A stretch of DNA of 64,000 bases. It comes from Marchantia polymorpha subsp. ruderalis. Lineage: Eukaryota > Streptophyta > Marchantiopsida > Marchantiales > Marchantiaceae. Positions 2,607 through 43,900 of the stretch are shown piece by piece. Position 1 is the first letter of the stretch; every line of letters begins with the position of its first letter. The stretch covers positions 16,562,001 through 16,626,000 of the forward strand of contig AP031358.1 in assembly GCA_037833965.1 (NCBI GenBank). Reading direction: 5' to 3'. The notes below the pieces were generated by a model. The model made no database searches, was not told the origin of the DNA, and was given only the letters and a program-made list of their open reading frames with translations. Made by a program: the position numbers and the translations under genes.

Positions 2607-4700
2607 AGACTGGCAGACGTGCCGATCACTTTTGTCGCATATTTCTACGTACATTTCTTCACGTAGAAATCTGACCCAAGTTGGGCTCTGAATAACCGAG
2701 CAGAGCACCACAATCTTGGTCCATGGAACTGCAAGTAGTATCCATGATATCGATACCATTTAATTTGAGCCAGTTGAGGACCTTTGGGACAGTTCTCCTC
2801 GACGCCGACTCTGGGATTCTTCGTGCAGAAGATCTGTGACTGATGGTGGAAGTTGAACTTCGTGAGACTGTTTCACGACGAATTTCATCCCTCTCCCAGA
2901 AGGTGGGGTGGGCCGGGAGTGATGAGAAGCAAACATTTGGATGACTTTTCAGACATCCTCGAACCGATTAAGAAGCACGCTCCTGCAGCAATCAGAGTCT
3001 GCATGGCAGATATTAATCGATATTTAGTCATTGAATTATTTTCTCAAGCGCATACCCGAAGATCTAAGTCGACTCTCCTTCCTTCTGCTTGAGATAGAGG
3101 GCCGGGACTACGACGGCGCAATCGGAAGCTTGGAGTTCTCCGAACCTGAGACTATATATTTCTGAAAGGAGCAAGGCTTTTGACATAGGAGCCTGAGCGA
3201 CAGAGTGAGTAAGCAATCTCCTTCGATCTGCAATTTAAACTAAATTGCAATGCCGACCAAATGTGTCGGTTATCAAGACTGGCGATATAGAAAAATCGTT
3301 TTTTCTGAAGAAGGTAATTTTCAACTTACAGTTTACTCTTCATTTTTTGTAATTTTATGACATCCATCTTATTATATGGATAGAATTAACTCGTGGAAGC
3401 TTTAACAAAAAGACCTTGACCACGAGGACAACAACATCATGAGCCGTTAAAGAATCAAACTTTTATATAGCCATGTCAGGAGTACAAGATGAGGAGTTCG
3501 TCATGATACTGGTTGCCACAAAGACAGATCAACGTACATATCACAAGGTCTTCTCAGAAGGCATCGATCCACTAAGGTGGATCTACACTCCTGACCATCC
3601 TGTCCCAATCTGGATGATGTCAATATTCCGATCTCCACAGCAACGAGACATCGATCTGGTTCAACACTGAATCCTCGGAGTTCTTTCGTCCCTTATCCGG
3701 TAAGAGCATGCTCTACGACTGTCTCTCTAATGCGGAGGCGAGTAGATTGAGGATTACAAGCCCATAGAAAGCCAAACATGCATTTCTATGTGTTCTTCGA
3801 TGTATCTTCAAAAACAATCTGTCCTGTATATTTGCGTTTTCTTAACATGGAGGATATGACCCATCCATGCGGTCCTGACGTCAATTCAGGCATCTTCTTC
3901 TGCCGCTTAACTCTGACAAACTCCGAGCACGCTTAACTTCTTGAAACACAATGGTACAAGCAGGAGCTTGAACGGTTGGACAGCCAGAAATTCTTCAGTC
4001 ACTGGGCAGGATCGAAAAATTGGCGAAGAAAGTAAGTGGAGTGGAATGCAATGATGCTGGTCCAGAATCAAATTTCCACAACAGGAAACCTCGAGATGGG
4101 AATATTATTGGATATTGAACCATGTGAAGAAGAACCAGTTTGATATACACTGTACCTGACTTCAAATCATCAGTTTTATCCAACCTAATTTGCAAACCTC
4201 GTCAATTGCGATCCGACTCCACTTAAAAAATAGATGGCTACTAAGGACATGCGTGGATTGTAATTTATCATAGCGGAAAAAAATACATTACTTTCGATTC
4301 AAACATACCAGGCATATCAATTCCCTCCCTAGAGCTAATGTGATGGAGACTACCGACATTGTTAGCTTGATGTCAAGGGATTAGTGTTCTGTACTGCTTT
4401 CAAGTCCTCCATTGATATAGGCTTTATATTATCATGAGATCAGGCAAAAAAAGTAGCCTCTAATTACTCTTCCGAATCCAAGACTCTTGAAAATATGCAA
4501 GGATCCAGGAGTTTGGGCTGAATCCGTGCGCCAAGACCGTGTACTCGCAAATTACAAATAAAAAGTGACATGCCGAGCAAGTTTTACTTGTGTACCATGA
4601 TGTAAAACAATAAGGAAACATATGGTGATAACAAAACAATGCATCACATATATTCCTCCCCTAGATACCACCAAGTAATGAATATTGCATGCAAAGTCCA
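2607..4700. other. Intergenic, possible gene remnants
   Basis: Two short plus-strand frames (2853-3092 and 3473-3670) look mildly protein-like, but neither matches a family I recognise and neither has convincing splice context. They could be exons of a lineage-specific gene, decayed gene fragments or chance. Nothing else stands out. Confidence 0.3.
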
Positions 4701-6200
4701 TGATATAGCAGAGGTGAGAAACAACTACCTTAGTCTCCTCAACCCTTGGAACAAATTACTCACTCCAAGCCTTGTGTGTAAGTAATAATGCCAACTTTCG
4801 GTATTTAATAAGTGAATGATCAAAATATAACCTAGATATGAATTGGCATTTATATTGACTTTTTTTTTCAAATAAGATACATGTCCAATAACACAAGCAC
4901 TAGAGTTCAGATAGGGCCAGAGAACTGTAGTCACTCACTTCAAGTTTCTTGTCAATCTTGTCGATAAAAAGCAAAATGGTTTTTTACTAATCAATATCTC
5001 CAACTTGTTGGATATAACACTGGAACCAATCCAAATATTATTCCTCTTATGAATTTGTAAGTTTAACAATGTCACAAACTTGAATTTAATCTCAATGTAA
5101 CAAATCATCAACATAAAATCAAACATTGTGATGACTTTCTCTTGAAATCAATAGATATCACTCATTTCTTTGCATGTTCAGCTCAAAAGAAACATCTTCA
5201 TGTAAAAACACAATAAGAAACATAGGTTATGTCTTGTGCTACTTTCACGATATGCTTCATTATTTTGTACAGAAGTTCATTTTATATATATAGAAAATCT
5301 TATCTTCATCTCAGCTTAAAATATAATGAAAATGTTGGATAATATTACTTCCAAGGTGAAATCCAACAACATGATAAATCATCAATTTTTGATGTGATGA
5401 TCAAACTCTTTTAAAAGTGCTAATATTTTTTGATTTGATACCTCATAAAGTGATACTCCATAAAATTTTGCAAAAGTTTAAAGGGCTATGGATTCGGATT
5501 CCAAGGATACTACTTACGGTCAGGTCATATTGCAGACTACTGCTCATACTAGCTCGTTTTTTATTTTCTAAATTTGTAATTACAGATATATTACATCAAA
5601 GATTATATTGATAACTATAGAGAAAAATCATCTTCAACTTAAAAAAAAAAATTACTACTAAAGTGATCAAAGACTTCATAAGACTTTGACACATAATCAA
5701 TTCATATCATGACATCATGATACAATTTTCATCACCTTAGAAAGTTTTTATACTAATTATGATAATACAAAATTCTAAAAAAAAATATTCAAATAATGAA
5801 AATTTCACATTTTTTACTAACGCACAAATTCAAATTAATCATAAAATATTTTAAACTTCAAACTTAAACAATGAATAAAAAGTAAGATGCATGAAAATGA
5901 TTCAACACAAAGACAAAACATAAGAAGCATAACTGTAAGTTAGAATCACAAGATTTCACAAAAAGGTATGTGATTCGCCTTTGGTTACATCATAGGAACT
6001 AGAGAGTTTTAGTGTCAAAAACTTTGAAATTATGTATGGGAATGCAAGCTAGGTCTGGCCACCCTTAGTAGTTGGAATTGATACCTAAAGCATGTTACTT
6101 GAAAACGCAGTTGATAGCTGACAATTGAAAAAATTAACTCCAACAATATTCCCTCAACTCATGTTGATTAAACAATAGCTATCACAATTAGAATTGAGAA
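4701..6200. other. AT-rich intergenic DNA
   Basis: This is strongly AT-rich sequence with many homopolymer A/T runs and stop codons in all frames. There is no recognisable coding or RNA gene. It lies immediately downstream (in the element's own orientation) of the LTR remnant at about 6225-6430. Confidence 0.5.
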
Positions 6201-6224
6201 TCAGTAAATAGTAAAGCGCAGAGA

Positions 6225-6430
6225 TGAATGACAAAGATGTAACGTGGTGAATCACGTTACATCTTCGTAGCCTTCTAAGGTTCACCACAGAAGGCTACGT
6301 CCACGGTTGAGAAAGTTCACACTTGTGAGAATGTACTAAAAATCTTCTAGTAATACACACATCCTGGGGCTAAATACCCCAGTATGCACGATACTCCTTG
6401 CTATTTTTAGCTATGAATTAAGGTTACTTC
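6225..6430 (-). repeat. LTR remnant of Ty1/copia element (minus orientation)
   Basis: Read on the minus strand, this segment shares a series of blocks with the plus-strand LTR-like repeats near 34.0 and 40.15 kb: 'agctaaaaat', then 'aaggagtat', 'tatttagc(c/t)cca' and 'gtgtgtat', followed by a 'ggtgaac' block. It sits just beyond the RNase H end of the decayed copia element, where a 3' LTR is expected. It also carries two adjacent perfect hairpins (listed separately). Confidence 0.6.
6234..6299. repeat. Two adjacent perfect hairpins inside the LTR remnant
   Basis: The first hairpin has 13-bp perfect arms (6234-6246 and 6253-6265) around a 6-base loop. The second has 11-bp perfect arms (6266-6276 and 6289-6299) around a 12-base loop. 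The two stem-loops abut with no gap. Perfect arms in an otherwise decayed element are unusual. Confidence 0.8.
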
Positions 6431-6746
6431 ATAACAATATTTTTTTCAACAATTGACTCCATAACCTTTATATATATTTTTTTGAAAATGATATAAGTAA
6501 ATATAGAACTAAGTCGTAGACAAAACATGATAAAGTATAAATATGCAAAGATAATTATAATTGTTTGGTGAACTCTACTTGTGATGACCTTGCAAAACAT
6601 CTATAATAGCACAATCCTAAAACTTTTAAATAAAATCATTTTGATCAACGCATAAGCTGGATTTAAATTATTTTCAATCTTGATTAGCTCAATACTTTCT
6701 TCAAACACTGCATGTCTGATTATATAATATTTCATCTTGATGTGTT

Positions 6747-6932
6747 TCACTCTGCTATCACTTGATTTGCAATAAGATGTATGTCATTTGGGCTATCATA
6801 GTGAAGATTTACAACCTTTTGTTTCAATACCATCTCAGTGATGAACCTATTCAGGCAAATAGTTCTCTTTGTTGCTTTTGCTGCCGCTATATACTTAATT
6901 TTTGTTTTAAACTTAGCTATGCATATTTGCAA
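6747..6932 (-). pseudogene. Copia RNase H relic
   Basis: A 61-codon surviving frame contains YIAAAKATK, then VVNLHYDSPNDIHLIANQ. This matches the end of copia RNase H (family pattern EYIAxxEAxKEAxWL...CDSQSAIxLAKN). It is followed in another frame by SKHIKMKYYII, matching the 'TKHIDVRYHFIR' block. It is the best-preserved piece of the element. Confidence 0.8.
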
Positions 6933-7089
6933 GGTAGACGTTAAACTAATGCATCAATCATTCAGTGTCAAAACACATCCCGTTGTAGATAATGTTTTGT
7001 CCATAGTCATCATCAACGTAGTCCAACAAAGATTTGGCATTGTTTAATACATCATCAAATAATAAATCATAATTCTTAGTATTCTTCAT

Positions 7090-7530
7090 GTATCTAAAAA
7101 TTTATTTCATTGCTTTTCAATGCAAACCTTTAGATTTAACATGTACTTGTTCATTTTGTTCATAGCCAGAGTGATATATAGGATTTTGATGACAATGATA
7201 TTTTGTTAGACATTGAATTGCAAAAGGTTGAAGTGTGCTGCCATAAAAATCTATATTGTTTTAAAAACGGTTATGTTAAATTTATCAAATACACGTTGAA
7301 CACACTTGCATTGATTCAATCATAGTTTTTTTTCTTCAAATTTTTCCAAAAATTCATATTTAATTTACTCTTTGATTCAATTAAATTTTTCATCTCATAT
7401 AAAAACTTCAACTGATTTTTTCTTTTGTCCACGTTGGATTAATTCTTTGCCAAGATCAAAATGTCATTCACGTAACATATTTGAATAATAAAATTAAAGA
7501 TTTTATTATTCATCTTTTTCATGTAAACAC
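7090..7530 (-). pseudogene. Copia reverse transcriptase relic
   Basis: On the minus strand, about 7530-7440 reads VYMKKMNNKIFNF, then ICYVNDILILAKN, which corresponds to the RT active-site block (family consensus LLLYVDDMLIA). The second catalytic Asp position is Asn here (YVND). Downstream at about 7340-7250, QCKCVQRVFDKFNI and then AAHFNLLQFNV match the segment after the RT core. Frameshifts and stops separate the blocks. Confidence 0.75.
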
Positions 7531-8361
7531 AAATATTATACAAGTTCCATGAAAATCCTTGTGCTTTGACAAATACATCAAATTGCATATTTCATTATGT
7601 ATGAGCTTGCATATATAATGATTTCATATGACAAATTGAGTACTCTACAAAACAACTTCTCTTGACCTTTCTTCTAAAAGTGAACTGATTGTTTCATGGT
7701 AATTATTTTTTCTATTGATGCATAGATTAATGTTATAACTAAATCTATTTGATCCATATTGAGATTAAATGTAACAGCAAGTGCACATACTAAACAAATT
7801 ATAGTATATTTTGCTATAAGTGAAAATACTTTGACATACTCCACATTTTTCTCTTGTGTAAAATATCTTCTCATCAACCTTGTTTTGAAGATTATTTTTT
7901 TGTTAGCACATGGATTGTACTTCAACTTTTACACCTCTTGCAATAAATCAAAGTTTGATTCATTGGAAGTTTCATTAGCTCTTAGGTTTTGTTATCCAGT
8001 GTAACTCACACTCTATAGCAACATTTCACTCAAGCTTATTAATAAAATCTTGAATTATTCAATAAGTAAAAGTTTATACTTCTTTCAAAATTAAGACCAT
8101 GTCATCATCATAGGTATTATCAATATTGCTATACTTAAGATTGAATAAATCAATCCATAATCCATATCTTACAATAGTAATACTAATCTGATTTGATTGT
8201 TTCTAATAAATAATTTTGATTGATCACTATAATTTGGTGCAAATATTTTAGTTTCACCAACAATGATCTCCTTTTCCAATTCATACTCTTCAAGAATTTG
8301 CTTTATATTTATCAAAGCTTATACTTGTATCATATCACCAATCACATAATGATCAATCTCC

Positions 8362-8870
8362 CTACCGTGAGTGGAGATTCTTCCTTGTTGATAATTGGAG
8401 CCTGAAAATTGGAATTTTTTTTAATAATATGGATTCATTGAAAAAAACATCTCTAATGACAATAATTCTACAAACTACTAGATCCCGTAGATGATAGCTC
8501 TTCATATCACTAGCACATTCAAAAAAACAACATTTTTTGAATGTATGATTCAACTTGGTACTAATCATCTTAAGCGGTACAATAAAAAAATCTCAAACAA
8601 ATATAATCAATTATCAGTTTGTGCTTTAATTCAAATGGTGTCAAGAAATTGATTGCACTCGAAGAAAAAAGTTGAATCAAATACACCATGATATTGACAG
8701 CTTTAGCTCTATTTCATGTGGAAAATCAAATAAGTTCAACATACTACAGAACTTCTCCAAGATTGTTCAAATGATACTCTTAGAAACAACATTATGTTGC
8801 AGAGTATAAATCAAAGTTTAATGACGAGTTATTTGCTCTTGTTTGCAGTTTTTTCAAAACTACTCAAAAG
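8362..8870 (-). pseudogene. Copia integrase relic
   Basis: With in-frame stops ignored, the minus strand at about 8650-8850 reads like the copia integrase stretch that follows the catalytic Asp region: QHNVVSKSII, then EKFCSMLNL and FPHEI, matching the family pattern PQQNGVxERxNRT...ARxMLxxxxxPxxFW. Further down, the frame at 8568-8362 contains KKCCFFECASDMKSYHLRD followed by RDVFFNES, which matches the family's 'KCIFLGY...KGYRLWDP...RDVVFDE' segment. Several stops and frameshifts are present. Confidence 0.75.
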
Positions 8871-9802
8871 TATATTTTAGGACATTATACGTACGTAAAT
8901 CTTTCACTTTGTGTCCAGTCTAGTCACGCATTGTCTCAAATCTAGTCCACAAACCTCAAATATTTTTCATACATGATACATAGTAAAATTTTCTAAGGGA
9001 AGAGACTTTTGGGAAAAAATTTCACATAAATCTTGAATAATCATCAAAAACTTGAGATTGAGACTCTTAAAAAAATCTCCACACATCACTATATACATAT
9101 TCAAATAATCTTTTGGAGTCATCATAGTCAAATCATTGATGAATTCCAACATCAGAAATTTGACTATGATGTTATACATAACACAATTTTCATAGAACTC
9201 CAAGTCAACTTTAGCTATGTAAGAATGCTATTGCCTAAAAGTAATAGACATAACACATGATACTCACTCATGTGTTATAACCTAAAATGATATATATGAG
9301 ACATTTCAATTCAAGTTTGAGTAAAATTGAATTCTCAACTAATAGTTTACTTCTCTAGCATATATAAATTATTGTGCTTATAACCTTTAAACATAATCTT
9401 ATCATATATTTTCACCTCAAGCAATTCTTATTTCACTGATCTCATATTGGATTAATCTCACTTGAATCAATCTACGTTTGATTTTATTAACATTCAAATG
9501 TTTGATTTCGGTTAATATTTGAATATTTACATATCCAATATATTTAATCCTAACAACTTGATAATTTTGCATAAAATATGAACTGTTTGATATTGAGAAA
9601 GTATAAAAAGAATTCTCTAATGTGATAGATGTCATAAAAATAAGCACTATATATGAAATACATACATCACTAATATTTTTGATGAATTGCATTTGACATA
9701 CTTTTGGCATCATAATCTAACACCTAGCAAGTCATAACTGTCAATGTCAAATTCTTGAGCCACATAGATCAACAAAGGAACAACACTTTTAGACTTCATA
9801 CG

Positions 9803-9850
9803 ACATTTATTCTTGATGTGGCCACTCTTGTGACATTTCAAACCCACAAA
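9803..9850 (-). pseudogene. Gag zinc-knuckle relic
   Basis: The minus-strand translation reads KCHKSGHIKNKC, the last three ligands of a CCHC knuckle (C-x4-H-x4-C with the typical GHIKNKC core). The expected first Cys, three residues before the first retained Cys, is Gly (ggt instead of tgt). This anchors the gag end of the element and shows it is inactivated. Confidence 0.7.
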
Positions 9851-12542
9851 CGTCTTCTATCTAGGAATTTAACCATAGATTTGATGTCATCCTTGGATTC
9901 AAAATGCTTGCTATCTTTATCATTTTGTGAATACTTTCAATATCAAATCACATTCATTGTTGTATTGGAAGAAGAAGATGAAGTAATTAACAACATCATT
10001 TTTTATTGTAAATTAAGAATTCCCAAAGCATTTACAACTTCATTGTAAGTGATTGTTTGTCTATTATAATAAAACAAGACAAGTAACAATGACTAATATG
10101 AGCTAGTAAATGAATTCAATGGAAATAGAGGTGTTATCATGAGTATACTCTTCATCAATATAATGAGAATCAATGACAAAATCATCACATGTATCAATAT
10201 GATATTGAATTTTCGTGTCTTATACTTTCATTTTGAAGCTCATCAACTTCATGAAGTCATACAACATGTTTATCAATTCTTTGGAACAATATCTGTGCTA
10301 AAAATACTTTGAAAGTATATTATATTTGTTAAATTCATCCACTTGTTTGAAAATTAAAGTTTATGAATTGTGTTGCGAGTTAAATTTATTTCTTGCAACA
10401 TAATATTTTATATAAAATATCATATGAATATGACTATATGAATAAAATACAATTATGATTTTAAAATTTTATGTCTTTAATGTTACTTATTTTTATGTCA
10501 TTAAACTTTAAAATTGACTGCAGAAGTAAAGTTAATAATATGTAAATTTGATATAATGATCATGATTCATTTTAAAATCTAAAATTCAAAATATAATTAT
10601 TTAAAAATCTTCATATGTATTTCATTTTTCATCATTCACATTCAAAAATCTTGATTTATTATTTAAGTAAAATTTTTTAATGTTTTTTTAAAATGAATAA
10701 ATAAATAAATATATACCTAAATAATTGTAAGGGTATTTGATCATTTTTAATTGTAAGATTTATATTTAATTACAAAAAATAATATATAAAAAATAATTAT
10801 AAATTTATAAACATGATTTAAATTATCAATTAAGAAACTTAGAAGAAAAAAATTGATATATTGACATGAATAATGTAATATGTACAAATCAATGGATTTT
10901 TCCAATAAACACTATTATATATATAAACTTTTGGCGATATTTTTAAATTTTATTTATTTATTTTTTAATGTGTCTGATAAGATGCTTGAAATCCGAAATC
11001 TTGAAATATTTATTTTTTTATCTTTAAGTTCAATAATGATCAAAATATTTTTTTATTTCCATTCTTAGTTTTTTATTTTTTAAATTGTCTATTAAACTAA
11101 ACTTTAGATTATAATGCGATACGTTGGTGTTAAATCATATCTACATAATTCTTGTAATATTCTTCATAATTTTAGCTATATTCTGTTTTAAACACATTTG
11201 ATTGAAAGTTAAATATCATTATTATATAAATAGTATGCATTGAAAATGTTGTTTACTTAAATTTCTGCATTTTTCAACTGGATAAGCGCAGATTGATACT
11301 TTTCCAATCACCACGTCAAATTTTCCTGACATTGTCTTTGAAATAAGATTTTTATTTTTTTTTGGCAAAAACTTGCTCATTTAAAATTATATAAGCTTAA
11401 GGAAGAAAAAATTTAATTATAATATAGATCAATAAGCTTTGAAATTTATTAATACAAGAGTTGATATGCCAATAAATCAGAAGTAGATTTTTGTAATGTG
11501 ATTTTATGTGTGTATACATACGACTACTGCTAATTTTCAAGTAGTTATTTTGAAAATCTATGTAAATAATATGTTTCGTATGAAAAAAATCAATATGTTT
11601 TTTTATATATGCAAGAGTCAATCAAACTTTGAAATCAAGATGAATTATTGGAATAAATGTAAGAGATTAGTGTGATTGAGTCAAGGAAATAATTGATCAA
11701 AGGAATTTTATTTAAAGATTTGTTTAATGTCATATTATCATAAACTTAATATGCTATTGATGCAAATGAGAGGATAAAGATGTAGTCACTTCTCTTTGAC
11801 AAGATACTGTATAAATTCATATGTATTATTCTGTGCATTACATATGTTATTGCTTGGATGAAGATGTTGAATAAGTACATGTCAGTTTCAGTAAATGTAC
11901 ATTCAAAATCCACTTCCCATCTTTTAATGCTCATCACTTTAAATTTTCAAATCTTATCGATAAATAGAACATAGTAAATTATCCAAATATATTTGAATAT
12001 TTTACAAAATCTATATAGAACTGTTAAATCATATAACATAAATGCTCAAAAATCAAATAAACTTTCTTGACCTGTATAAATAATTTATTAATGAAACTAT
12101 TACAGAAGATTGATTACTTAAATTAAGTAAAAACTAAATCTCATATACTAAAAATTGAAAAGTTTTTTCGCCGGAGAAATATTTTTTCCTTATTATTTCA
12201 AAAAGTGCATTGATTTTAAAGCTCAAAAAATCTGTCTGTATTATGATATTAATTATTTTTTTTAAAATCAAATTAAGATATATATGAATAATAATAAAAT
12301 TAACGCTGATATTTTCTGTTAACATTCGAAAGAAAATTATTAAATATTCAAATTTACCCAATTTTTTGGAAAATGAAGGGTTATAAAGTAACATTTTTAT
12401 CAGATGTTCTTGAAATCAAATTGTTAAAACAAAAAGAATTATGTGAAAAATTGAAAATTTTTAGGTTTATGTATGTGATTCTATGAATATTCATATATTA
12501 AATATAGAATTTATTAACAAGATTATTATCTTATTTTCTTAT

Positions 12543-12576
12543 AATTTTGGATAAATTTTCCAATTTATCCAAAATT
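12543..12576. repeat. Perfect 15-bp inverted repeat
   Basis: The arms at 12543-12557 and 12562-12576 are exact reverse complements (aattttggataaatt) separated by four bases (ttcc). Such a stem is longer than expected by chance at one site, although the AT-rich background makes palindromes more likely. Confidence 0.85.
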
Positions 12577-13166
12577 CTGTTCTTATCTGAATAGTTCAAA
12601 AATCAACGTTATGTGAAATCTCATGTAAATTTTCTTTAAGTTTTTCTCGTTTTTTGGATATAAGCAATGATTTTCGAAAATTCTTTTATTGAAATCATGT
12701 TTAATATGAAGTCATCTTGGGGATAAGTTGAAAGATTATTTTGAAATTCTTTGCGCGAAATTGTGTTTAATGTATATTCTATGTGATTAATAAAATTTAT
12801 AATTTATTTGTGCTTGTGAATGGAGAAAAAAATTAATAATGATGGATTTCTTCTTAACCCAACTATTTATTGAATGTGAGGCTGAAAACAGAATGAGTGA
12901 CTATAAATGAGGTAACGGGTAGCTCAAGTTTTCTGTTATATACACAAGAATTTATTTAGAATGTACAGTATAACAGAATATTCAATCTAGACTTCGAGAA
13001 TTTCTGGATGATGTGTAAATTAATACTTGTATTATATTACACATGTCTCACGTACATCAAAATCACTAACAAAAAATTTCGCACAATTTGTGCAGATTTA
13101 GCATCTTCTTATACATGTGAAGATGGTGTCAGAGATATATTAAATAACAGTATTAAATGTGTAATA

Positions 13167-13197
13167 CCACGACTTATGATGATATGATAAGTCGTGG
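13167..13197. repeat. Perfect 11-bp inverted repeat
   Basis: The arms ccacgacttat (13167-13177) and ataagtcgtgg (13187-13197) pair perfectly around a 9-base spacer. It lies close to the transition from AT-rich DNA to the GC-richer psbY upstream region, so it may mark the edge of a small mobile element or simply be a chance stem-loop. Confidence 0.7.
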
Positions 13198-14034
13198 AAT
13201 TCTGATGGAAAATGAACACCTCAGATAGTTTCGTAAAAAGCAATCGGCGGTCTTCAGATTCAATAACAGATGATCCACATTAAGAAAACGATTGGGATCA
13301 TTGATGCGTAAATATACCTGTATCTTTATCTTTTATATGATGTACACAAAGCAAAACAAGTAAAATCGGAAAAAATAATAATTCTACTTTGAGACGAGAT
13401 GGAAAGAGATGAGACGCCCCGTCGGTTCTCATTGGCATTACCTAATTTCTAAAATCTGATAATACGATTGGTTTTGACATCATGCTCCACGTCATTCACT
13501 CATATTACTTAAATAAAAATATAAGAATAATAAAAAAAGGCCAAGTAGATGGGAAAAAGATGGGAAGAGCCGATCGAAGCTCACAAGGATGAAGCCGGAT
13601 ACTGTACTGAGCGGGACACTTGGATCACAAGAGTGCGAGATGGGAAAAATAACAAAAAATGGCATCCAAGAATGCAAACGGAACCGAAGGAGAAAATAAA
13701 TTTAGAACTCTCCGGGCAAACACGAAATTGAGCTCAAGAAGGGAGAAGAAGAAAAAGAAGCATGTCCAGAAATAAAACACGAGAAGGCAAAGGAAAGGAA
13801 AGGATCCGGTCGGAGCGAGCGGGCCCACGCCAGCTCGAGAGAAGAAGACAAGACGGCGTCGATCTTGTGGCTAAAGCATGGGCCCCAAGCCCCAAGCCGC
13901 AGCCCATCAGCAGCTCGTGAATGGTGGACTGGATGTCTTCCTGGCCTGCCCTGTGGCCTCCTTCTCGTCTGTGGCCCAAATCCTCCACCGCGGCAGGCAA
14001 CTCAAGCCCAGTCAGCCCAAGCCGACGAGACGTT

Positions 14035-14084
14035 GGAAGGAAAGGAAAGGAAAGGAAAGGAAAGGAAAGGAAAGGAAAGGAAAG
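14035..14084 (+). repeat. (GGAAA)n microsatellite
   Basis: About ten tandem copies of a pentanucleotide upstream of psbY. It is likely polymorphic in length. Confidence 0.95.

Positions 14085-14352: not shown

Positions 14353-14380
<28 letters not shown>
14353..14380 (+). repeat. Poly-C tract (28 C)
   Basis: An uninterrupted run of 28 cytosines in the psbY upstream region. The length is prone to sequencing or assembly error. Confidence 0.9.
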
Positions 14381-15815: not shown

Positions 15816-16847
15816 ATGGCCATGGCGACAGCACTGGCTGGAAGCAGTCTCAGTGTTGCTGCAACTCTGCAGAAGAACAGCGGTGCTCTGGGTCAGGGAG
15901 TGCAGCGTCTGCGCGTGAGCAGCACCCCAACCAAGGCCTCATGGAAGAAGCTCCAGATGCCCGCCGTCTCAGCCATCAAGTCCGAGACGAGCCTCTCGAC
16001 TGAGGACTTGTCGCTGGGAGCAAGCGCCCTGGCGGGAGCACTCTTCGCCGCCATGGCCTCATCCGACTCTGCCATGGCCGCCCAGCAGATCGCCTCCCTG
16101 GCCGCCGAGGACAACAGAGGCGTCGCCCTCCTGATCCCCTTGGTCCCAGCCATCGGTTGGGTGCTGTACAACATCCTGCAGCCAGGACTGAACCAGATCA
16201 ACAAGATGAGGGGAGTGAAGGGATTGGTCGCTGGGCTGGGCCTGGGAGCTCTGGGATCAGTCGCATTCTCGTCAGAAGCCGAAGCCGCCGTGCAGGAAAT
16301 CGGCCAGATTGCAGACAATGACAGCAGAGGAATCCTGCTGCTCGGAGTGCTCATCCCGGCAGTCGGATGGGTTCTGTTCAACATCCTGCAACCCGCTCTG
16401 AACCAGATCAACAAGATGAGATCCACCAAGGGAGTGATCGGCGCAGTCGGGCTCGGAGGACTCGCGTCCGCCCTCTACACTCCCCACGCCGATGCTGCAC
16501 AGGAGCTGGCCACCATCGCCGACAACGACAGCAGAGGAATTCTGCTGCTGGGAGTCATCGTCCCTGCAGTTGGATGGGTGCTGTTCAACATCCTGCAACC
16601 TGCTCTGAACCAGCTCAACAAGATGAGATCCACCAAGGGCTTGGTGGGCACCGTGGGAATCGGCGCCGCCGCTGCCTCCCTGCTCTCTGCCCAGGACGCT
16701 GATGCTGCGCAGGAATTCGGCCAGTTGGCCGCTGACAACAGGCCCGTGATCCTGCTGGTTGTGCTCGTGCCCGCCATCGGCTGGGTGCTGTACAACATCT
16801 TGCGCCCTGCTCTGAACCAGGTCGACAAGATGAGGAACAAGAAGTGA
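15816..16847 (+). CDS. psbY: Photosystem II PsbY polyprotein precursor, four PsbY units
   Basis: PsbY is a small single-span subunit at the edge of photosystem II in the thylakoid membrane. Plants make it as a nuclear-encoded precursor that is cut into separate peptides. The intact 343-codon frame starts with a chloroplast transit-like region (residues 1 to about 60, rich in Ser, Ala, Thr and Lys). Four PsbY units follow at about residues 89-132, 158-202, 228-271 and 298-343. Each has an acidic N-terminus (A-x-[ED]DNRG or ADNDSRG), one hydrophobic span containing PA[IV]GW, and the tail NIL[QR]PxLNQ[ILV][ND]KMR. Each unit is preceded by a second hydrophobic stretch ending in an Ala-x-Ala-type site (SAMA, EAEA, HADA, DADA), as expected for thylakoid processing. 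The period is about 70 residues. The angiosperm precursors I know carry two units; four is the oddity here. There is no intron in the coding region. Confidence 0.93.
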   Translation: MAMATALAGSSLSVAATLQKNSGALGQGVQRLRVSSTPTKASWKKLQMPAVSAIKSETSLSTEDLSLGASALAGALFAAMASSDSAMAAQQIASLAAEDNRGVALLIPLVPAIGWVLYNILQPGLNQINKMRGVKGLVAGLGLGALGSVAFSSEAEAAVQEIGQIADNDSRGILLLGVLIPAVGWVLFNILQPALNQINKMRSTKGVIGAVGLGGLASALYTPHADAAQELATIADNDSRGILLLGVIVPAVGWVLFNILQPALNQLNKMRSTKGLVGTVGIGAAAASLLSAQDADAAQEFGQLAADNRPVILLVVLVPAIGWVLYNILRPALNQVDKMRNKK

Positions 16848-31239: not shown

Positions 31240-33300
31240 TAGAAATAGTGAAAATTACCTACCAGCTGCACCCAAACAGTTCATCAAACGAAAACTTCAT
31301 TTTGCATTCGCTGTTGAAATTCCAGAGCCAATTGGACGGCACAGTGTGGAACATGTCTAAAAGCACCACATGTCCACTTGTGACAAAAACTCATGATCAG
31401 AAGAAAAAACTCAACTTCGGCAATTTTCTGGCCAGTATTCTGAAGGTTCTCACTCCGGCCATATCAAGCTAAAATCGAAGATTGCATTAAAATTTCTCAT
31501 TAATCGGGTGACTGTCGCCACAGCGGTCACAAGGTGCAATGAACGCTTTGAAACCACCAGCACGCAAATGTCCACGAAAGCCTCGAAACGCTACATGCGT
31601 TGAGCTAATTCGGGGCCAAGCAACCTCTCATGTATCCTTCCTCCGGTACCTTACCTACTTATTCTCCAGGAAAAAGTTCCACGTGCGAAATCAGTCTGGA
31701 GTACTCTGGCACTGTCGCCTTGCCCGCGCAATCGATTGGGTTCGAATGGTTAAGACCGCAGTGTCGTACTATCCGATTTCAGAAATTACCCATCAAGCTC
31801 CTGGCGCAGCATTTCAATGACAGAATCGTTATCAAACCACCGCAGCTTACAACCCATCTCCTGCTTTAACCATAGCCAGCTCCGATCATGACGCGTTTCG
31901 CCTTCGTCATTCAGACTTCTCTACGAAGAACACTTGACGAGGGTCATCCCCGTGTCCCGCTTCCTGGTAAACATTCCTTCTTCGAGAACTTGCAGGCAAC
32001 TTCTTCGACCTCTGAAACCCTCACGTGAATCATCGAACATTAATCAGAGATGCGTCCGCCGCTGAAATCATAAAATGCTCGTAGTTCCTGGAAGACCAAG
32101 CTGTCACGTATTCAAATTGTGAGGGGCGAGCTGCGGGCAGATGAGCCAATTTCCACCTGCCAAAATACTCGAATGGTTGCTTCGAAAAACTCGAGAACGA
32201 TCCGCCATTTTTTGGAGTGCGTTCAACGTAGTCATGCTATTCCAAAGATCCTAGATTCCACTTGGCTAACCTGCCAGCCGTGCTCTACCGACACTACTCC
32301 AGTCAATGTCAATGTACGAGGAAAGTCGTCCTCTCGGGTCTTGCTGACATCCCACTTCCAGCAAGCTCCGCAATTATTGCATGCTGAAAACCTCGCGCAG
32401 AGTTTTTCCACGCCTACCGACGTGATTTCATGACTCCACTCGCGACTGTCAATTTCCGAACCTAATAATCTCTCCGTGTACAGTCATCTCGCTCCTTAAA
32501 CCCATCATCGCGCGACTCGTGCTCCCGAAGCGCCTCCAGGCTACAGAGTATTCTCTGAAACGATTTGTCGTTCTCTGGCCAATTTCGTTTTCTCCCAGAA
32601 ATGCCTCTGATGTTAGGTGATGGTCGAAGTTTGACCCCAGAGCTAGACGAATCAGAGTCGCTGTTGTGCAGATATAGGTGGAAACTTTCATGCTTCAAGA
32701 TTGACTACTTTGGGATGCTGACCGAAATCGGAATCAGAACAAAGGAATTGAAATGATGTGATTTTGGATCCGAGAACCAAATTAGTTCTGCCAGCCAATG
32801 TTGTACCCTCCATATTCTCAGAAAGCCTCTCATATTCTCCGACACGAAAGAGAGCACGTGACTTTCCCCTACAAAATGAGAAATTAAGCGACGCGCGAGA
32901 TTTTCCCTCTATAGAGCATAAATAATGGTAATAATAAACCGGGCGGGAAACATGGGGCTGGGTCACAATAGCGTCAGTATAGCATTGATACTTCATTCGA
33001 GTATTTTTCTTGCAGTGAGATTATTTTGACGGTGTGACACTACGACGCCGGGGGGGAAACAATTCGCCCTTATCCCAGACTGCAAAAAATAATTAATCTG
33101 GAGGGCTTTGTCAGTACCCCATGCTGACTATTGTAGATATTAAAAATATAATCGACCAACAACCTTGTTCTCCCTGTCTAAGTAAGTATAGCAGAATCCC
33201 GGTCATGTGTTATTATCCCTCTTAACAGCTGTTAACAGTTAATCACCGCGTGACATGTGCCCTCGGCACATGTAATGATAATGCTATAAGAAATCATGAT
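31240..33300. other. Upstream region of the GT14 gene, no other gene seen
   Basis: This is moderate-GC DNA upstream of the glycosyltransferase. Several 80-105-codon frames exist on both strands, but none has a recognisable domain. At about 33226-33295 two small palindromes (around ttaacagctgttaa and acatgtgc...gcacatgt) lie just before the switch to AT-rich repeat DNA. Confidence 0.4.
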
Positions 33301-33983
33301 TCATCTACATAAATAAAATAATTATATCAGATGTTTTTGAATTTAAAAAGTAGAAAATTTTTAAATTTTCTAGAGTCACTAAAGTCAAAATTTTTATAAT
33401 ATAATCTTAATAAATATATATATAAATGATTATCTAATTTTTTATTAGATAATTAAACACACAATAAAAAAAAATCTAAAATTCAAATCTAGGATTATTC
33501 CAATATCTAATCTTCAAAATTATACAGTTAATTTTCGAAAATCAATATAAATTAGCATAGATTTGATATATGAATCTCATCAACAAAAAGTCAATAATTT
33601 TAATTCAAATTCAAATTCTCCAAAATTGTAAGAAATTATAAAAAATAAATTATAAGAAATGAAATCAATTCAAATTAATTGAAAATTTTGTGTAAAAATT
33701 AATAATTTAACAGACTTCTTAAATTTAAAAATTAAACCAAAAAATTAAGAAGTATTTGAAATTAGGAGCAGAAAATTGAAATTCAAATAAGAATTAAATA
33801 AAATTATATATTCACAAAAATATCATAGAACAAATTTATACAATCAAATTGAAAAAAAAATGATAAGTTAAACATTGAATTTAAGTAAAATATAAGACTT
33901 AATAAAAAATAGATTATAAAATAAAAAACATAAATTTAAATATAACGAACTAAAATAATTTCAAAATCATTAGTAATAAACAT

Positions 33984-34225
33984 TTATTGAGATTAACTAT
34001 GATTAAGGAGAAAACTCAAGTCCTAGCTAAAAATAACTAGGAGTATTGCCGGTATTAGAATATTTAACTCCACGGTTTGTGTATGATACAAGACACTCAA
34101 TTGATTGTCACACATGACTTTTTATCGTGTACAAAGTTTTGTGGTGAATCACGTTACATTAATATCTCGACTTCTCGTGTTTATTGTCACTTGAGGTCTT
34201 CGGTTAAATGCTAATAAATTGATAA
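33984..34225 (+). repeat. LTR-like repeat, copy A
   Basis: It shares ordered blocks with copy B near 40.15 kb: ctagctaaaaataactagg, then gt(a/g)ttgc, a 'tattta(a/g)ctcca(c/g)ggtttg' block, 'gtgtatgaNacaagacA', 'gtca(c/t)(a/g)catgactttt', and a tail ending 'ttaaatgctNataa'. The same family occurs in the opposite orientation at 6225-6430. Confidence 0.65.
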
Positions 34226-36510
34226 GCGTTTGGTTGGAAATTATAATGAGTGACAATTTTGAGATTTGACAAGTTTGTGATGTTCTTATAATGATTTTGA
34301 GTTTTGATCGTTTTTCATGATTGATGATTGTGGATGATTTGTGACAAATGTTTTTCTTTTGACAATTTACTATTTTGTATATGTTTTTTTTTTTTTTTTT
34401 ACTTCTATGTCGAGATGAACACGTGAAGTTGATTTGAAAAAAATTCTCAAGTAAATTTTTAAGTTGAAGTGAGAGAAAACTTTCAACCAGAATAATTTGG
34501 CAGTCAATTTCGGCTCAACAAGGAGTTTCAGACTTATAAATTTGTATTTCTATGAAGTGTTCGAGGTTAAAAAAACCAAGAGTGAGTGAAGAAGCAAGAG
34601 TAGTAGTGTGAGATCAAGAGTTGTTCTTACTCGTTTGCTAATCTTGACGAATAAGAGTTACTCTATTCATGTCAGCAACAGAATCCTACAATGAATACAC
34701 ATACGCATGGATGCTCAATATCCTCCTATATCCATGGCACAATTGGTGGATACGAGACATGTGTGGGTAATGGAAAGATATGAAAGATTCGGTCTTTAAA
34801 ACAACTGAACATTCGGATTGTCTCACGCTAACAGCCAATCATCACATTGTGCTCATTAGTTATTACTTGTCATAAACTTGCCAAAAAGTCTAATTCATAC
34901 ATTGAATAACTAATATTTTTGTAAAAACATGCTTTAAGCATAACCAAATGAATGTTACTTGTAGATCGAAGTGGAGTAAAGTAGAATATTGTGGTCTACA
35001 AAAATCTTTCCAGCATATTCAATCCAATCCTTGGATTTTTAACCTCATAACGTGCAAAAAAACTTGTTGTCTTGAAGGTATATCAAAACTCGTCGATCAT
35101 GATCATTATCTTGAAATTTATCAAAATTAAGTCGATGCATTTCATTTCGCATAAGCAACCGACACCAATTATTTCTTGCTTTACTAAGATCTTAGACATC
35201 GGAGTTTATGAACTCAATATGTTTTAACTTGTACATATCCAAATCCAAGATTTAAAGAAGAAGAAGCTTACATATCAAAGACTATAATGTTTTGCAATGA
35301 TTTACTCTCAAAACTTCAAAGAGCAGAGTCAGTGCAAAGTTAAAGTATCCATATGACCTGCTTTTTGTCGACACTACATACGATTTGGATGCGACTTGAA
35401 CTTACATTCAAAATTCATACTCCATAAATCTTGTTGTTTATGGAGTTTACAATATCTCTTAAATAGCTTTATTTTGGTGATGGACTGATCGATAGGTAAT
35501 TAATATAGACAAAGTGCCATGGGTGAATAATGGGTATGAACAAGATGTCATGGATGGGTAATGGTTGGGTACAGTTGAGTTGCGCGCAGTTGTGGGTGAG
35601 GTATGTGTATTGTTATCAAGCACAATGCAAGACTATAGTATACTAGTTCATGCATTTGTCTAGAAGTCCAAAACAATTGGGAGCCAAACGAATGTCGTGA
35701 TCGCAATTTTTGCTTTTGCGAACGAGTTTTTTAAAATACGCTTCCGCCTCTTCTCAAAAAATTTTGAATAAGGAAATTACCTACTCAATTTGTTAACCGA
35801 AATATTTTTTTCATGCATTGTATTTCAAACAATTCAAATTTGTCCAGTTCGATGCTTCTTATTTCCGAAGAAACCTGAAGCCAACGCTATTTACGTGGAA
35901 TTGCGCATCTTTGAACAAGTAGGTCGCACACAAAACTCACTCCCAACTTTAATCAGGATTTCCTTTCTGGACAAAGCAAAGAAATTTGCACCTGCGGCAA
36001 ATCTGAATTCCATGCATCGATCTCGAAAAGATGAATCTCGATGCAGATATGTGCCGCTTTCGATATATTTTGTTTGCATATTTTTTTGTTAAAAATATTA
36101 TTTTCAAAAAAATATTTTATATATAAATTTTCTGTCGTATGAATCTTTACTTGAATATATGCAAATTGTGTATTGTTGGAAAGCTCTCGGCGCAACTAAT
36201 GCTTCTAAATATCTTTGGAGAGCTAACATATGACAAAGAAGTAAAAAATCATTGCAAAAACTACAATGATTTTTTGTTTTCATGTGTGTCTATGATGCCA
36301 AAGTGTTCCCAAGCTTTGGAATCTAGCACCTTGTAAGATTCTTGTCAATATGGATGTTTCTTTCAAAACTTTAGAATTTTCAAACTCTCCTTGTAACAAA
36401 TGAAGATTTTCATTCACGTATATAATTGTGGTGGAGTTTGATCATTATATGATTAATGATCAAGAGTAAACAACGGTATCGGTGGAGTTAATAATCACAC
36501 AATTGAACTA
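34226..36510. other. Interior of the copia-derived element, no legible coding
   Basis: AT-rich sequence between LTR-like copy A and the copia C-terminal relic. I could not read gag, integrase or RT motifs here. A poly-T run of 18 lies at about 34383-34400. A 100-codon frame at 35790-36092 is not recognisable. Confidence 0.5.
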
Positions 36511-36524
36511 ATCAAGGTTGACGA

Positions 36525-39500
36525 TAATTCAATGTAGCTGATACGTTTACCAAAGTTATTCCTTTGGAGATTTTCAAACAACATTATACTATTATGCAAG
36601 TTATGTATTGGAAGTATAAGTAAAGTTTGCTAGCATAGTTTCTTCAGATATATTTTTATATAACTACTTTATCCTATGATGACTACTGTTTAGTTCTAGT
36701 TAGCTTTTGAGTAAAAAGTATTCTTGTATTAGCTTTACTTTTGGATTTTCTCGCATAATAATTATATATGATACAAGGTTTATGTTCTAAGGTCAAAGTT
36801 CCTCCTGTGGGTACCTGGAATAAGCCAAAGACTAAGGTATAAGGAAGCTTCTGCGCTGAAATATTCATTTAAGATCAAGTTCAACTTGAAATTCTTGTTC
36901 GAAAAGAAAAGAAAGAGTTGGAATGATTTTGTTTATACAAAGAAGCTTGTGCGCTGAAATAGTCAACTTAGATGAGGTATAACTCAATCTAACTGATGCG
37001 TTGACCAAAGTTATTACTTTCAAAAACTTCAACCGACATTATACTATTATGCAAGTTATGTATCGGAAATATAAGTAGAGTTTGCTAGCATATTTTCTTC
37101 AGATATATCTTTATATAACTACTTTATCTTATGATGACTATTGCTTAGTTCTAGTGAACTCTTGTGTAAAAATTATTCCTGTATTAGCTTTACTTTTGGA
37201 TTTTCTCGCATGGTAATTATATATGTTACGAGGTTTATGTTCTAAGGTCAAAGTTACTCCTGTGGGTACATGGAATAAACCAAAGACTAAGGTATAAGGA
37301 AGCTTCTACGCTGAAATATTCATCTGAGATCAATGTCAACTTGAAATTCTTGCTAAAAAAAAAAAGTTAGAATGATTTTGTTTGTACAAAGAAGCTTGTG
37401 CGCTAAAATAGTCATCTAAGATGATAGATAACTCAATCTAACTAATGCGTTGACCAAAGTTATTACTTTCGAAAGTTTCAAGCGACATTATACTATTATG
37501 CAAGTTATGTATCGGAAGTATAAGTAGAGTTTGGTAGCATATTTTCTTCAGATATATCTTTATATAACTACTTTATCTTATGATGATTACTGCTTAGTTC
37601 TAGTTAACTCTTGTGTAAAAAGTATTCTTGTATTAGTTTTACTTTTGGATTTTCTCGCATGGTAATTATATATGTTACGAGGTTTATGTTCTAAGGTCAA
37701 GGTTCCTTCTGTGGGTACCTGGAATAAACCAAAGACTAAGGTATAAGGAAGCTTCTGCGCTGAAATATTCATCTGAGATCAAGGTCAACTTGAAATTCTT
37801 GTTCAAAAAGAAAAGAAAAAGTTAGAATGATTTTGTTTCTACAAAGAAGCTTGTGCGCTAAAATAGTCACCTAAGATGATGGATAACTCAATCTAACTGA
37901 TGCGTTGACCAAAGTTATTACTTTCGAAAGTTTCAAGCGACATTAGACTATTATGCAAGTTATGTATCGGAAGTATAAGTAAAGTTTGCTAGCATTGTAT
38001 CTTCAGATATATCTTTATATAACTATTTTATCTTATGATGACTATTGCTTAGTTCTAGTGAACTCTTGTGTAAAAAGTATTCTTGTATTAGCTTTAATTC
38101 TGGATTTTTTCGTAGGATAATTTTGTTACGAGATTTATGTTCTAAGGTCAAAGTTCCTTCTGTGGGTACCTGGAATAAGCCAAAGACTAAGGTATAAGGA
38201 AGCTTCTGCGCTGAAATATTCATCTGAGATCAAGGTCAACTTGAAAATTTTGTTCGAAAATAAAAGAAAGAGTTGGAATAATTTTGTTTGTACAAAGAAG
38301 CTTGTGCGCTAAAATAGTCAACTGAGATGAGGTATAACTCAATCTAACTGATGCGTTGACCAAAGTTATTACTTTCAAAAGTTTCAAGCGACATTATACT
38401 ATTATGCAAGTTATGTATCGGAAATATAAGTAGAGTTTGGTAGCATAGTTTGTTCAAACATATCTTTATATAACTACTTTATCTTATGATGACTATTGCT
38501 TAGTTCCTAGTGAACTCTTGTGTAAAAAGTATTCTTATATTAGCTTTACTTCTGGATTTTCTCGCATGATAATTATTTATGTTACGAGGTTTATGTTCTA
38601 AGGTCAAAGTTGCTTTTGTGGGTACCTAGAATAAACCAAAGACTAAGGTATAAGGAAGCTTCTGCGCTGAAATATTCATCTGAGATCAAGTTCAACTTGA
38701 AATTCTTGCTCGAAAATAAAAGAAAGAGTTGGAATGATTTTGTTTGTACAAAGAAGCTTGTGCGCTAAAATAGTCATCTTAGTTGAGGTATAACTCAATC
38801 TAACTGATGCGTTGACCAAAGTTATTACTTTCAAAAGTTTCAACCGACATTATACTATTATGCAAGTTATGTATCGGAAATATAAGTAGAGTTTGCTAGC
38901 ATAGTTTTTTAAGATATGCTTTATATAACTTCTTTATCTTATGATGACTATTGCTTAGTTCCTAGTGAACTCTTGTGTAAAAAGTATTCTTATATTAGCT
39001 TTACTTCTGGATTTTCTCGCATGATAATTATTTATGTTACGAGGTTTATGTTCTAAGGTCAAAGTTGCTTTTGTGGGTACCTATAATAAACCAAAGACTA
39101 AGGTATAAGGAAGCTTCTGCGCTGAAACATTCAGCTGAGATGAAGGTCAACTTGAAATTCTTGTTCGAAAAGAAAAGAAAGAGTTGGAATGATTTTGTTT
39201 GTACAAAGAAGCTTGTGAGCTAAAATAGTCAACTGAGATGAGGTATAACTCAATCTAACTGATGCGTTTACCAAAGTTATTACTTTCGAAAGTTTCAAGC
39301 GACATTAGACTATTATGCAAGTTATGTATTTGAAGTATAAGTAAAGTTTGCTAGCATTGTATTTTCAGATATATCTTTATATAACTACTTTATCTTATGA
39401 TGACTATTGCTTAGTTCTAGTTAACTCTTGTGTAAAAAGGATTTTTGTATTAGCTTTACTTTTGGATTTTCTCGCATGGTAATTATATATGTTATGAGGT

Positions 39501-40120
39501 TTATGTTTTAAGGTCAAAGTTCCTCCTGTGGATCCCTGAAATAAGCCAAAGACTAAGGTATAAAGAAGCTTCTGCGCTGAAATATTCATCTGAGATCAAG
39601 GTCAACTTGAGATTCTTGTTCCAAAGAAAAGAAAGAGTTGGAATGATTTTGTTTGTACAAAGAAGCTTGTGCGTTGAAATAGTCAACTGAGATGAAGGAT
39701 AACTCAATCTAGCTAATGCATTGACCAAAATTATTGATTTCAAAAGTTTCAAGCAACATTATACTATCATGCAAGTTATGTATCGGAAGTATAAATAGAG
39801 TTTGCTATCATAGTATATTCAGATATATCTTTATATAACTATTTTATTTTATGATGACTATTGTTTAGTTCTAGTTAACTCTTGTGTAAAAAGGATTCTT
39901 GTATTAGGTTTATTTATTGATTTTCTCATAGAGTAATTATATATGTTACGAGGTTTATGTTCCCTTCATGCTAGCAGTTCTTTATGTTATTACTCTGTCA
40001 TGTTATGACTATGGCTTAGTTCTAATTGACTATCGTGCAAAGAGGGATCTTGTGTTAGGTTTTTGTCTAAAAGTTCCCGCCGAGTAATATAAAATGTTAC
40101 CGAGCATATTGTTTTCTTAA
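36525..40120 (+). repeat. Tandem array, about 8 units of about 453 bp, copia-derived
   Basis: The marker aaggaagcttctgcgctgaa, or a one- or two-base variant of it, recurs at 36841, 37296, 37745, 38196, 38652, 39107 and 39562. The spacings are 455, 449, 451, 456, 455 and 455. Each unit also contains a block whose plus-strand translation resembles DALTKVITF, the end of a copia polyprotein. The first unit runs directly out of the copia C-terminal segment. The last partial unit (from about 39965) runs into the LTR-like copy at 40150. The recurring 61-codon minus-strand frame inside the units is a consequence of repetition and is not annotated as a gene. Confidence 0.93.
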
Positions 40121-40149
40121 CATTTGTTAAGAAGTAAGATCCTTGAGGT

Positions 40150-40380
40150 CACCTTTGGTTAAGGAATAACATTAAATTCTAGCTAAAAATAACTAGGGGT
40201 GTTGCAAGTACTAAAGTATTTAGCTCCAGGGTTTGTGTATGACACAAGACATTCAGAAGACTGTCATGCATGACTTTTTTTTGTAGATGTAGTCCTTGGT
40301 GGTGAACAAAGTTATATTGGAGTCTTGACTCATTGTGTTTACTTTCATTTGATATTTTTAATTAAATGCTCATAATATTG
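40150..40380 (+). repeat. LTR-like repeat, copy B
   Basis: The direct-repeat partner of the copy at 33984-34225, with many substitutions and small indels. The divergence implies that the insertion is old if these are the two LTRs of one element. Confidence 0.65.
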
Positions 40381-40689
40381 GATTCAAAAAAAATTATTTA
40401 AATTTAAAATATTGTTGAATTTTTTGAAATGCAAAACTAAATGTCAAATATAACCCAAATTTTTTGATCAAAATGAGTAAATAAAGTCAAAAATTTTGAA
40501 TAACATCAAAAATAGTATGAATGAAATTAAATCAACTCAAATGATAAATTAAAATTTTAGAAAAAAACTCAAAATAAAATCAGATTTTAAAATTTTAAAA
40601 TAAAAAAAATCTACAAAAAATTAATATAAAATGAAATTAATATCATCAAAATGAAATCAAAAAATAAAAAATTCTTGAAATAATATAAT

Positions 40690-40915
40690 GTTGAGGTTTA
40701 TTCTTGTTAAACACTAACCTCGGATTTGAGCTATAAATAGCTAGTATGGTCGCTTAGAGTGGGGTTTAATATCATGGCTTCTGCTCCGTACCTAGAGTCT
40801 TTTGTGACAATACCTTGAATAAAGCATCATGTGTTCTTGGTAGGTGTAGTACTACTCTTGAGAATGAACCACACTATTTTATGTCTCGTGTTGGATGTTT
40901 GATTGACTGTTTTGT
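40690..40915 (+). repeat. LTR-like repeat, diverged copy C
   Basis: A third, more diverged plus-strand copy: gctataaatagctag, then 'ggt(c)gc', 'gtacctagagt' and 'gtgacaata' blocks in the same order as in copies A and B. It may be a solo LTR of a related element. Confidence 0.4.
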
Positions 40916-43900
40916 CATTATATTTCTCAAGTTTTAACTTTCACATATAATAATATAAAAATTTAAAATTAGTTTCTATTATATAATCAAATTTTATTTT
41001 GTTTCGTTAACCTAATTTTTTAAAAAAAATTACTTGTAATTATCATATTTTGACACATTAAGATATAAATTTAGATTGAAAAATATTAATATATTAAAAA
41101 AAGTTCAATCTAATGAAAATCAAAATAGATTAAAATGAATTTAATTTTCAATTTTTATCCATTACGTAAATTTTTTATTTTAAAATAAATTATATATAAA
41201 ATATTATAAATATAATATGTGATAAAAATTCTAATGTATTTTTAATTAATTAATATTTTAAAATAATTTGATAATTTAAATTATACCATCATTTTGATTT
41301 TTCATTATTTTTATTTTCACTTAAAAGAATTTTTTTTCTATTTTTACATGTCAAAATAAATTTTTATTTTCATCTTTACTTTAATTTTGTGAAGTTGATT
41401 CAAAATCTTTTTTTATTTATGTTATGTATATGATATTAAGTAAAAACTGTTGAACTATGATAATAATGTAGTTCATGTTCACATATCGTGATGTCATGTC
41501 ATTGTTCACGTTCTGATATTTAATTTAATCTATCCAAAAACAAACCAAGACTCAAAAAGTTTATGTAAAAATATTATATCATTGCATATGAAGCTCTACT
41601 TCTAAAATCAAATCTCATTCGTGCAAAAGAGAGAATGCAAATTGTAAACTAGATTGATAAGTTTGACTTTCAGAAAGATTAAATTACTTGATAATTATGT
41701 AATCTTAGTCAAATTGAAAAAATACTTCTTGACTAAATCAATTTTCAATTGAACATCAAAGTTTCAAAAACTCCAAGTATAATTCATGTGTGAATCTGAT
41801 CATAGCTAAACAAATAATACTACTTTTCACATTGATCATAACATACTTTTCAAATTTGCAAACAATGTTGTTGAACATCATAAGTTGTGATTGTGCAATG
41901 CATGTTTTGTATGAGCTGGATAGTGAGAAAAAACTGGATATGATATTTGTTGTAACGAATGTTCAATATCCAAAAATTTATTTCTCAAGGACGTTCATGT
42001 GAGATACAATTATCATTTGCTGATGAATTATGAAAAATGAGCAAGAATCAAAGTTTTTTTCTTTGCTTTTTTTGCAAATAAAATCAATAATTCGTTTCAT
42101 ATTGATTTTTTTGCAAGAATTTATTGAATCTTTTAATAATTATAATCTTTTAATAATTTTCTTGTATATTTATTTAATGAAGAATTATTTTTTGATACAA
42201 AGACTATCACTTTGCGACAACAAGCATTATAAACTCTTTGGATTTTTTTTATGCAAAAGATTTTGCCTAAATGAATGATGCAGATCTTAATGCTTTCAAA
42301 ATTCTGAATTGTTTTTTTATTATGTTATGAGGTACATTATTGTGTTGCCACATAATCTGTAGAGAAAAATGATGACACTCATCATCATCTTATGATGTTT
42401 TGAACAAAAATTGTAACTCATTTCAAAGATGATCAAAGTTTAATAACCAAAAAAATGTTCAACTATGACAAAATTTATATAAGCTTTTAGATTTTAAGTT
42501 TATAATAAGACTTCAATGGATTGACCTTATATCATATAAAAAATGATGTAAAATACAGTACCGGAGAAAAATTGCAGAATATATTTTAAGGTTAAAACCT
42601 TTACGTAAACGTGTCCGGGCCTCCAACTTAAGCTAGTTGCACTGCATCGCATGCCTTGAGCAATGAAATTTGAGACCTTCCCTCCGCGATATGTGATACT
42701 GCAATGTCTCGAGAAACTTAAACCCATACACGAAAGCAGGAAAACAAAACAGAACAACATACAATAACTTTGAGAATTGCTGATACATGTTGTCTTTGAA
42801 TAAACCCAAAGACTGCAGCAAAATACATTATAAACTATTCCGCAGTTGATGACACAAGTATCCATCTAGCAACCCACATGCCAGAGGAGTAACCCAACTG
42901 TCTGACGTGGACACTATCATTTTCTATCCATGTATCTTTCAACATGTATCCTTGGAAAGAAACCTTGATATTCATCAGAGTCAGTTGGTGGAGAGGATTG
43001 ATTTGGGGGATGACAGGGTTTATCATAGCACATGGAATGTATCTGAAGTACAAGGTTGTTGACAAATCTAATTGTAACTTCATCATTTGATTTCCATTGT
43101 CTTCATCAAAGTAAGCCTCTTCACAGATCGGACTGTAGGGACACCAATCCGAGTGCAAGTGAATCTTACAATTATGTTCTCAGCAAGATGGATTCCAGTG
43201 ACCCGAGATGATACTTTTGGTGCGAGAGCCTTTTTTGGCTTGTAAGGGCCCTTCGGGCCTCTCCCGTTGGTCTCGGGGAAAGCCCGGAAATCGTAAATTT
43301 CCGGAACGTCCGCCCTTTTCTGACAGTGCCCCGACCTGTCGGACAGTCGCACGCCCTCCGGCCCTTTTTTTTGAGTTTGGTTTCCGGCGGATTGTCCATT
43401 TCAGTAGATTTTAGATCTACGTCATACTTAGGATTATTACTGGATTATCTCGTGGAAACTTGGGATCTCCTCACGGCGTAGACGATTAGATGTGGCTTCG
43501 CCTTTGGAGCAGTTGTGTTCATGTTAAGAATCAGCAACACTGACTAACTGGGAAGATCAATTCTAATAAGAAAAAGTATGGAGCTTATTTTGAGAGACCT
43601 TCTTCGTTGAGGACGATGGCATGACATGCGTATGGTGTCTCAAGTAGCAGCACAGAAGTGGCATGTGAAGGTGTGCTGAATCTGATGTTTGTAGTTTATG
43701 AAAGATCCAGGGAACAAACGTCTGCTTGATCATATGATGCCCATTTGGGAGGCTTTACACCAGGAGAAACAAGAACCCTGAAGAATGATTACACATAAAA
43801 TAAGCTTGTGGTGATGAGTTGTAAAGGTCTAATCTAAAACTTCACATGAACTCTTGGATTTGGAAGGATTGATTCATTGACATTTTTAATTGAGAGATTT

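Follow-up and report, generated by a model that had tools for sequence, protein, structure and literature searches.

The closest described relatives of the gene reported here are the nuclear PsbY polyproteins. The flowering-plant precursor (Arabidopsis At1g67740, PMC4823308; PDB chain 8z9d_5) is likewise a nuclear PsbY polyprotein, and a two-unit PsbY product has been described (PMC4823308). PsbY copy numbers have been given as four for Chlorella ohadii, three to five for Micractinium, Volvox, Chlamydomonas, and Scenedesmus, and one or two for higher plants (PMC10416949); the same source also attributes multiple PsbY units to "algae and lower plants," with no species named. A multi-unit PsbY precursor is already a known kind. 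For bryophytes, we found no description of PsbY unit number in the open-access literature, judged from titles and the openings of abstracts, and the sole mention of "liverwort" in the accessible part of PMC4823308 concerns psbN.

Two transmembrane spans reportedly drive the insertion of PsbY and take the charged region that separates them across the membrane (PMC8790069), and the protein lies antiparallel to PsbE and PsbF, adjoining cytochrome b559 (PMC10416949). PsbY was not seen in the PSII models that PMC8324835 names for Arabidopsis, spinach, and pea, nor in plant PSII models in PMC7184784, and its binding is therefore less certain in plants than in cyanobacteria and Chlorella. Here, we describe PSBY of the liverwort Marchantia polymorpha, found in a window (the whole stretch of DNA analyzed) of 64 kb, and compare it with these systems.

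Gene structure and genomic setting

The PSBY frame begins with the ATG at 15816 and runs for 343 codons without an internal stop to a stop codon ending at 16847 (Table 1). The Pfam family PsbY (PF06298; curated cut-off, 24 bits) matched the 343-aa protein with 196.8 bits (E 3.4e-59) in four stretches; the whole protein and each of the four units score above the cut-off, and the seven other Pfam families listed for the protein all fall under their own cut-offs. With four units in one frame, where more than one marks the class, the protein has this feature of the eukaryotic PsbY polyproteins, and the four-unit layout of the precursor is confirmed. The original prediction had placed four complete units in an intron-free frame; the units and the single open frame stand, and "intron-free" applies to the open frame only.

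A PF06298 scan of the whole genome (241,466,482 bases in 9 contigs), run without intron handling and scoring best candidates only (here six of six), returned four matches of 57.4–58.5 bits each, all above the cut-off and all within PSBY. Among 14 control genomes, matches occurred in four and exceeded the cut-off in one. Neither the family scan nor a protein search found a second PsbY locus in the 241-Mb, 9-contig genome, a result that an intron-split or strongly diverged copy could escape. Within the 64-kb window there was no Rfam match at the gathering score and no tRNA. Simple repeats lie upstream of PSBY, namely 9.6 copies of AAGGA (14037-14084) and 28 consecutive C (14353-14380).

Table 1. 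Features of the PSBY precursor, in window coordinates
Feature	Positions	Strand	Basis
PSBY precursor CDS, 343 aa + stop	15816..16847	+	open frame, Pfam PsbY
Presumed chloroplast transit peptide region, aa 1-59 (approximate boundary)	15816..15992	+	inferred from 7 K/R, 1 D/E in aa 1-58
Signal segment 1, aa 60-88 (start set by the analyst), ends AMA	15993..16079	+	hydropathy, A-x-A
Mature PsbY unit 1, aa 89-132	16080..16211	+	family scan, A-x-A, alignment
Linker + signal segment 2, aa 133-157, ends AEA	16212..16286	+	hydropathy, A-x-A
Mature PsbY unit 2, aa 158-202	16287..16421	+	family scan, A-x-A, alignment
Linker + signal segment 3, aa 203-227, ends ADA	16422..16496	+	hydropathy, A-x-A
Mature PsbY unit 3, aa 228-271	16497..16628	+	family scan, A-x-A, alignment
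Linker + signal segment 4, aa 272-297, ends ADA	16629..16706	+	hydropathy, A-x-A
Mature PsbY unit 4 with tail NKK after aa 340, aa 298-343	16707..16844	+	family scan, A-x-A, alignment

Anatomy of the precursor

Every one of the four units has the conserved core GWVL[YF]NIL and one hydrophobic helix, as expected of members of the family, and the units are spaced at 210, 207, and 207 bp, all multiples of three. An A-x-A motif stands at each of the four junctions (AMA, AEA, ADA, and ADA before aa 89, 158, 228, and 298), which, together with the hydropathy profile, bears out the earlier claim that each unit is preceded by its own hydrophobic stretch and Ala-x-Ala-type site. Eight hydrophobic segments are present in all, the signals being weaker in hydropathy than the mature helices (best 17-mers on the Kyte-Doolittle scale, 1.46–1.77 vs. 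2.01–2.46). Net charges of the loops are -2, -4, -3, and -3 on the lumenal side and +3, +3, +3, and, at the C terminus, +4 on the stromal side, with side labels set by the model. By hydropathy and charge, all four units thus carry the marks of a polyprotein member: a hydrophobic segment, an A-x-A site, and a place in the alternation of acidic and basic loops. Extending the published two-unit PsbY polyprotein to four hairpins would be expected to give this alternation, which, together with the eight segments, fits what four signal-plus-helix hairpins in a chain require. The N terminus (aa 1-58) is basic and poor in acidic residues. Dual signal peptides for PsbY are reportedly announced in the title of a 1999 paper by Thompson.

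Relations among the four units

The alignment of the four units has 45 columns, 22 of them invariant. The closest pair is formed by units 2 and 3, with 31/34 core residues and 37/44 mature residues identical and a core DNA identity of 0.902, compared with 0.725–0.755 in the other five of the six pairs. Units 1 and 4 have 26/34 core and 31/43 mature residues in common, and the outer-inner pairs 23–25/34 core and 27–28 mature residues. The description of units 2 and 3 as nearly identical therefore suits the 34-residue core better than it does the mature segment or the signals ahead of them, which agree at 9/25 residues; signals 3 and 4 agree at 13/25. Signal 1 showed no clear relation to signals 2–4 (109, 4, and 56 of 500 shuffles reached the score). 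In all six core pairs, dN (0.04–0.22) lies below dS (0.33–1.08), which indicates that the protein has been conserved while synonymous sites changed; these values are pairwise on 34 codons, noisy, and give no test for any single unit. Core dS is 0.33 for units 2 and 3 and 0.74–1.08 in the other five pairs.

The unit-by-unit phylogeny that the original prediction had called for (12 rows, 10 of them different; 37 of 39 columns) groups units 2 and 3 with support 88/91 and leaves four of its seven inner branches open; units 1 and 4 take no settled position, and on these 37 columns no Marchantia unit finds a settled match among the flowering-plant units. The sequences had also been read as a hint that the inner units were recently copied, a suggestion for which support is weak. 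Where units 2 and 3 share a core residue, 22 of 29 codons are identical and 7 differ, against 14.5 identical expected under the codon usage of a presumed ATP-citrate lyase subunit B frame (ACLB, described below; P 0.002), a null under which the other five pairs give P 0.15–0.55. Under the gene's own codon usage, mature units 2 and 3 have 24/35 identical codons at common residues against 20.3 expected, a small excess, and the other five pairs have 14/26, 17/26, 17/29, 16/26, and 15/25 against 13.1–16.3. Because the two nulls are unequal in strength, we call units 2 and 3 the closest pair and not a recent copy: the tree, the core codons, and dS speak for closeness, the small excess under own usage and the diverged signals against recency. 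They would best be seen as the youngest or the most homogenized pair.

Comparison with other PsbY precursors

The flowering-plant precursor has two units as opposed to four in Marchantia, and 22–28 of 34 core residues are common to the units of both; that flowering plants have two had been correctly stated (PMC4823308; two stretches in 8z9d_5). The C. ohadii precursor has four PsbY units, as in Marchantia (PMC10416949). A profile built from the four Marchantia units found two stretches in chain 8z9d_5 and four in 9hd7_U, a chain named chloroplast PsbY, with no stated species, that we set beside C. ohadii. Like the Marchantia protein, 9hd7_U holds four units in one chain, whose cores have 14–18 of 34 residues in common with the Marchantia units. 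Within it, the core of unit 1 equals that of unit 3 and the core of unit 2 that of unit 4, and all four form one clade (100/100). The identical pairs and the single clade suggest that PsbY copies may have expanded, or been homogenized, separately in each lineage. At the other extreme, cyanobacteria have one psbY gene (PMC4823308); their single-unit PsbY and that of some algal plastids (ycf32) belong to the same family, with a single helix and weaker matches. The short PsbY chains matched in the PDB (33–41 residues) hold one unit each and, since deposited chains may be mature forms, are no guide to the precursor.

More than two units had been taken as remarkable in itself, a view that the comparison does not support, because green algae reportedly have three to five (PMC10416949). 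What Marchantia PSBY adds is a probable bryophyte point between the algae and the flowering plants, in a reported spread of three to five units in green algae and one or two in higher plants, and its four units fit a view of lineage-wise drift in unit number. Four sequence-distinct peptides from an apparently single-copy gene would also provide a natural way to test whether all units of a PsbY polyprotein are used.

A proposed route from precursor to peptides, and its alternatives

In our preferred reading, PSBY is a nuclear gene of a land plant that encodes a four-unit polyprotein. The precursor would enter the chloroplast and lose its transit peptide, then insert into the thylakoid as four helical hairpins, each made of a signal helix, an acidic lumenal loop with A-x-A, and a PsbY helix, with basic stromal linkers joining the hairpins. 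The thylakoidal processing peptidase would act in all four lumenal loops; further cuts in the three linkers, on the stromal side, would set free as many as four PsbY peptides with lumenal N termini, any of which could occupy the PsbY place beside cytochrome b559 if it accumulates and is used. We consider this explanation very likely. The most economical account of several units per transcript is that they serve dosage or reflect a nearly inconsequential drift in unit number. We think it improbable that the liverwort keeps a larger, older PsbY set from which four distinct peptides all accumulate and are used differently at the cytochrome b559 site, flowering plants having reduced the set to two.

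It is possible, if somewhat doubtful, that accumulation is limited to one or two units, such as the last of the four, the others being degraded after insertion or being passengers; such an outcome would narrow the four-hairpin explanation and would not contradict it. Not every unit need accumulate: PMC4823308 cites barley as lacking PsbY-1 and strong in PsbY-2. The part shown of the 34-residue C. ohadii chain 8bd3_Q1 resembles units 2 and 4 of 9hd7_U, unlike units 1 and 3, in a setting where modelers must choose one sequence. Against this reading stand the PsbY core, retained in all four units as the invariant columns show, and a dN well below dS in six of six pairs. A division into specialized isoforms, with the outer units (1 and 4) and the inner units (2 and 3) used in different conditions or assembly states, strikes us as a poor prospect. 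Core sharing, highest for units 2 and 3 and higher for 1 and 4 than between outer and inner units, would slightly favor specialized outer units, but one transcript would yield all four in equal number, units 1 and 4 are not resolved in the tree, and C. ohadii PSII is described as having a single PsbY in each monomer (PMC10416949). Misassembly can affect tandem arrays, and an assembly artifact or a decayed array might be suspected here; against this, the units differ in DNA, their spacing is not constant, and the frame is open throughout. The core DNA identities in particular make assembly stutter unlikely, and we regard an artifact or decay as barely credible.

Searches of viral and prokaryotic collections

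A viral origin of tandem PsbY, an idea raised in PMC10416949, was considered in a scan of IMG/VR with the PSBY protein, which gave six pattern matches, none of them confirmed by tblastn; a single-protein query of this kind is weak and reaches close relatives only. Scanning GTDB genome contigs with the same protein yielded 53 pattern matches; none was confirmed, and again only close relatives were within reach.

Other features of the window

On the reverse strand, a 624-aa open frame (46435-48309) has CoA-ligase and citrate synthase C-terminal domains, and we take it to be ATP-citrate lyase subunit B. Three further reverse-strand frames (53556-57960) together resemble a NIN-like protein, with GAF_NLP, RWP-RK, and PB1 domains; GAF_NLP scores 231 bits in one frame and 22.9 bits, below its cut-off of 24.1, in another. 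A 213-aa, hydrophobic-looking open frame on the forward strand (1962-2603) has no Pfam match at E 0.001. Stretches of low GC content (0.21–0.36 per 2 kb), at 4001-14000 and 32001-46000, lie next to GC-rich, gene-bearing stretches.
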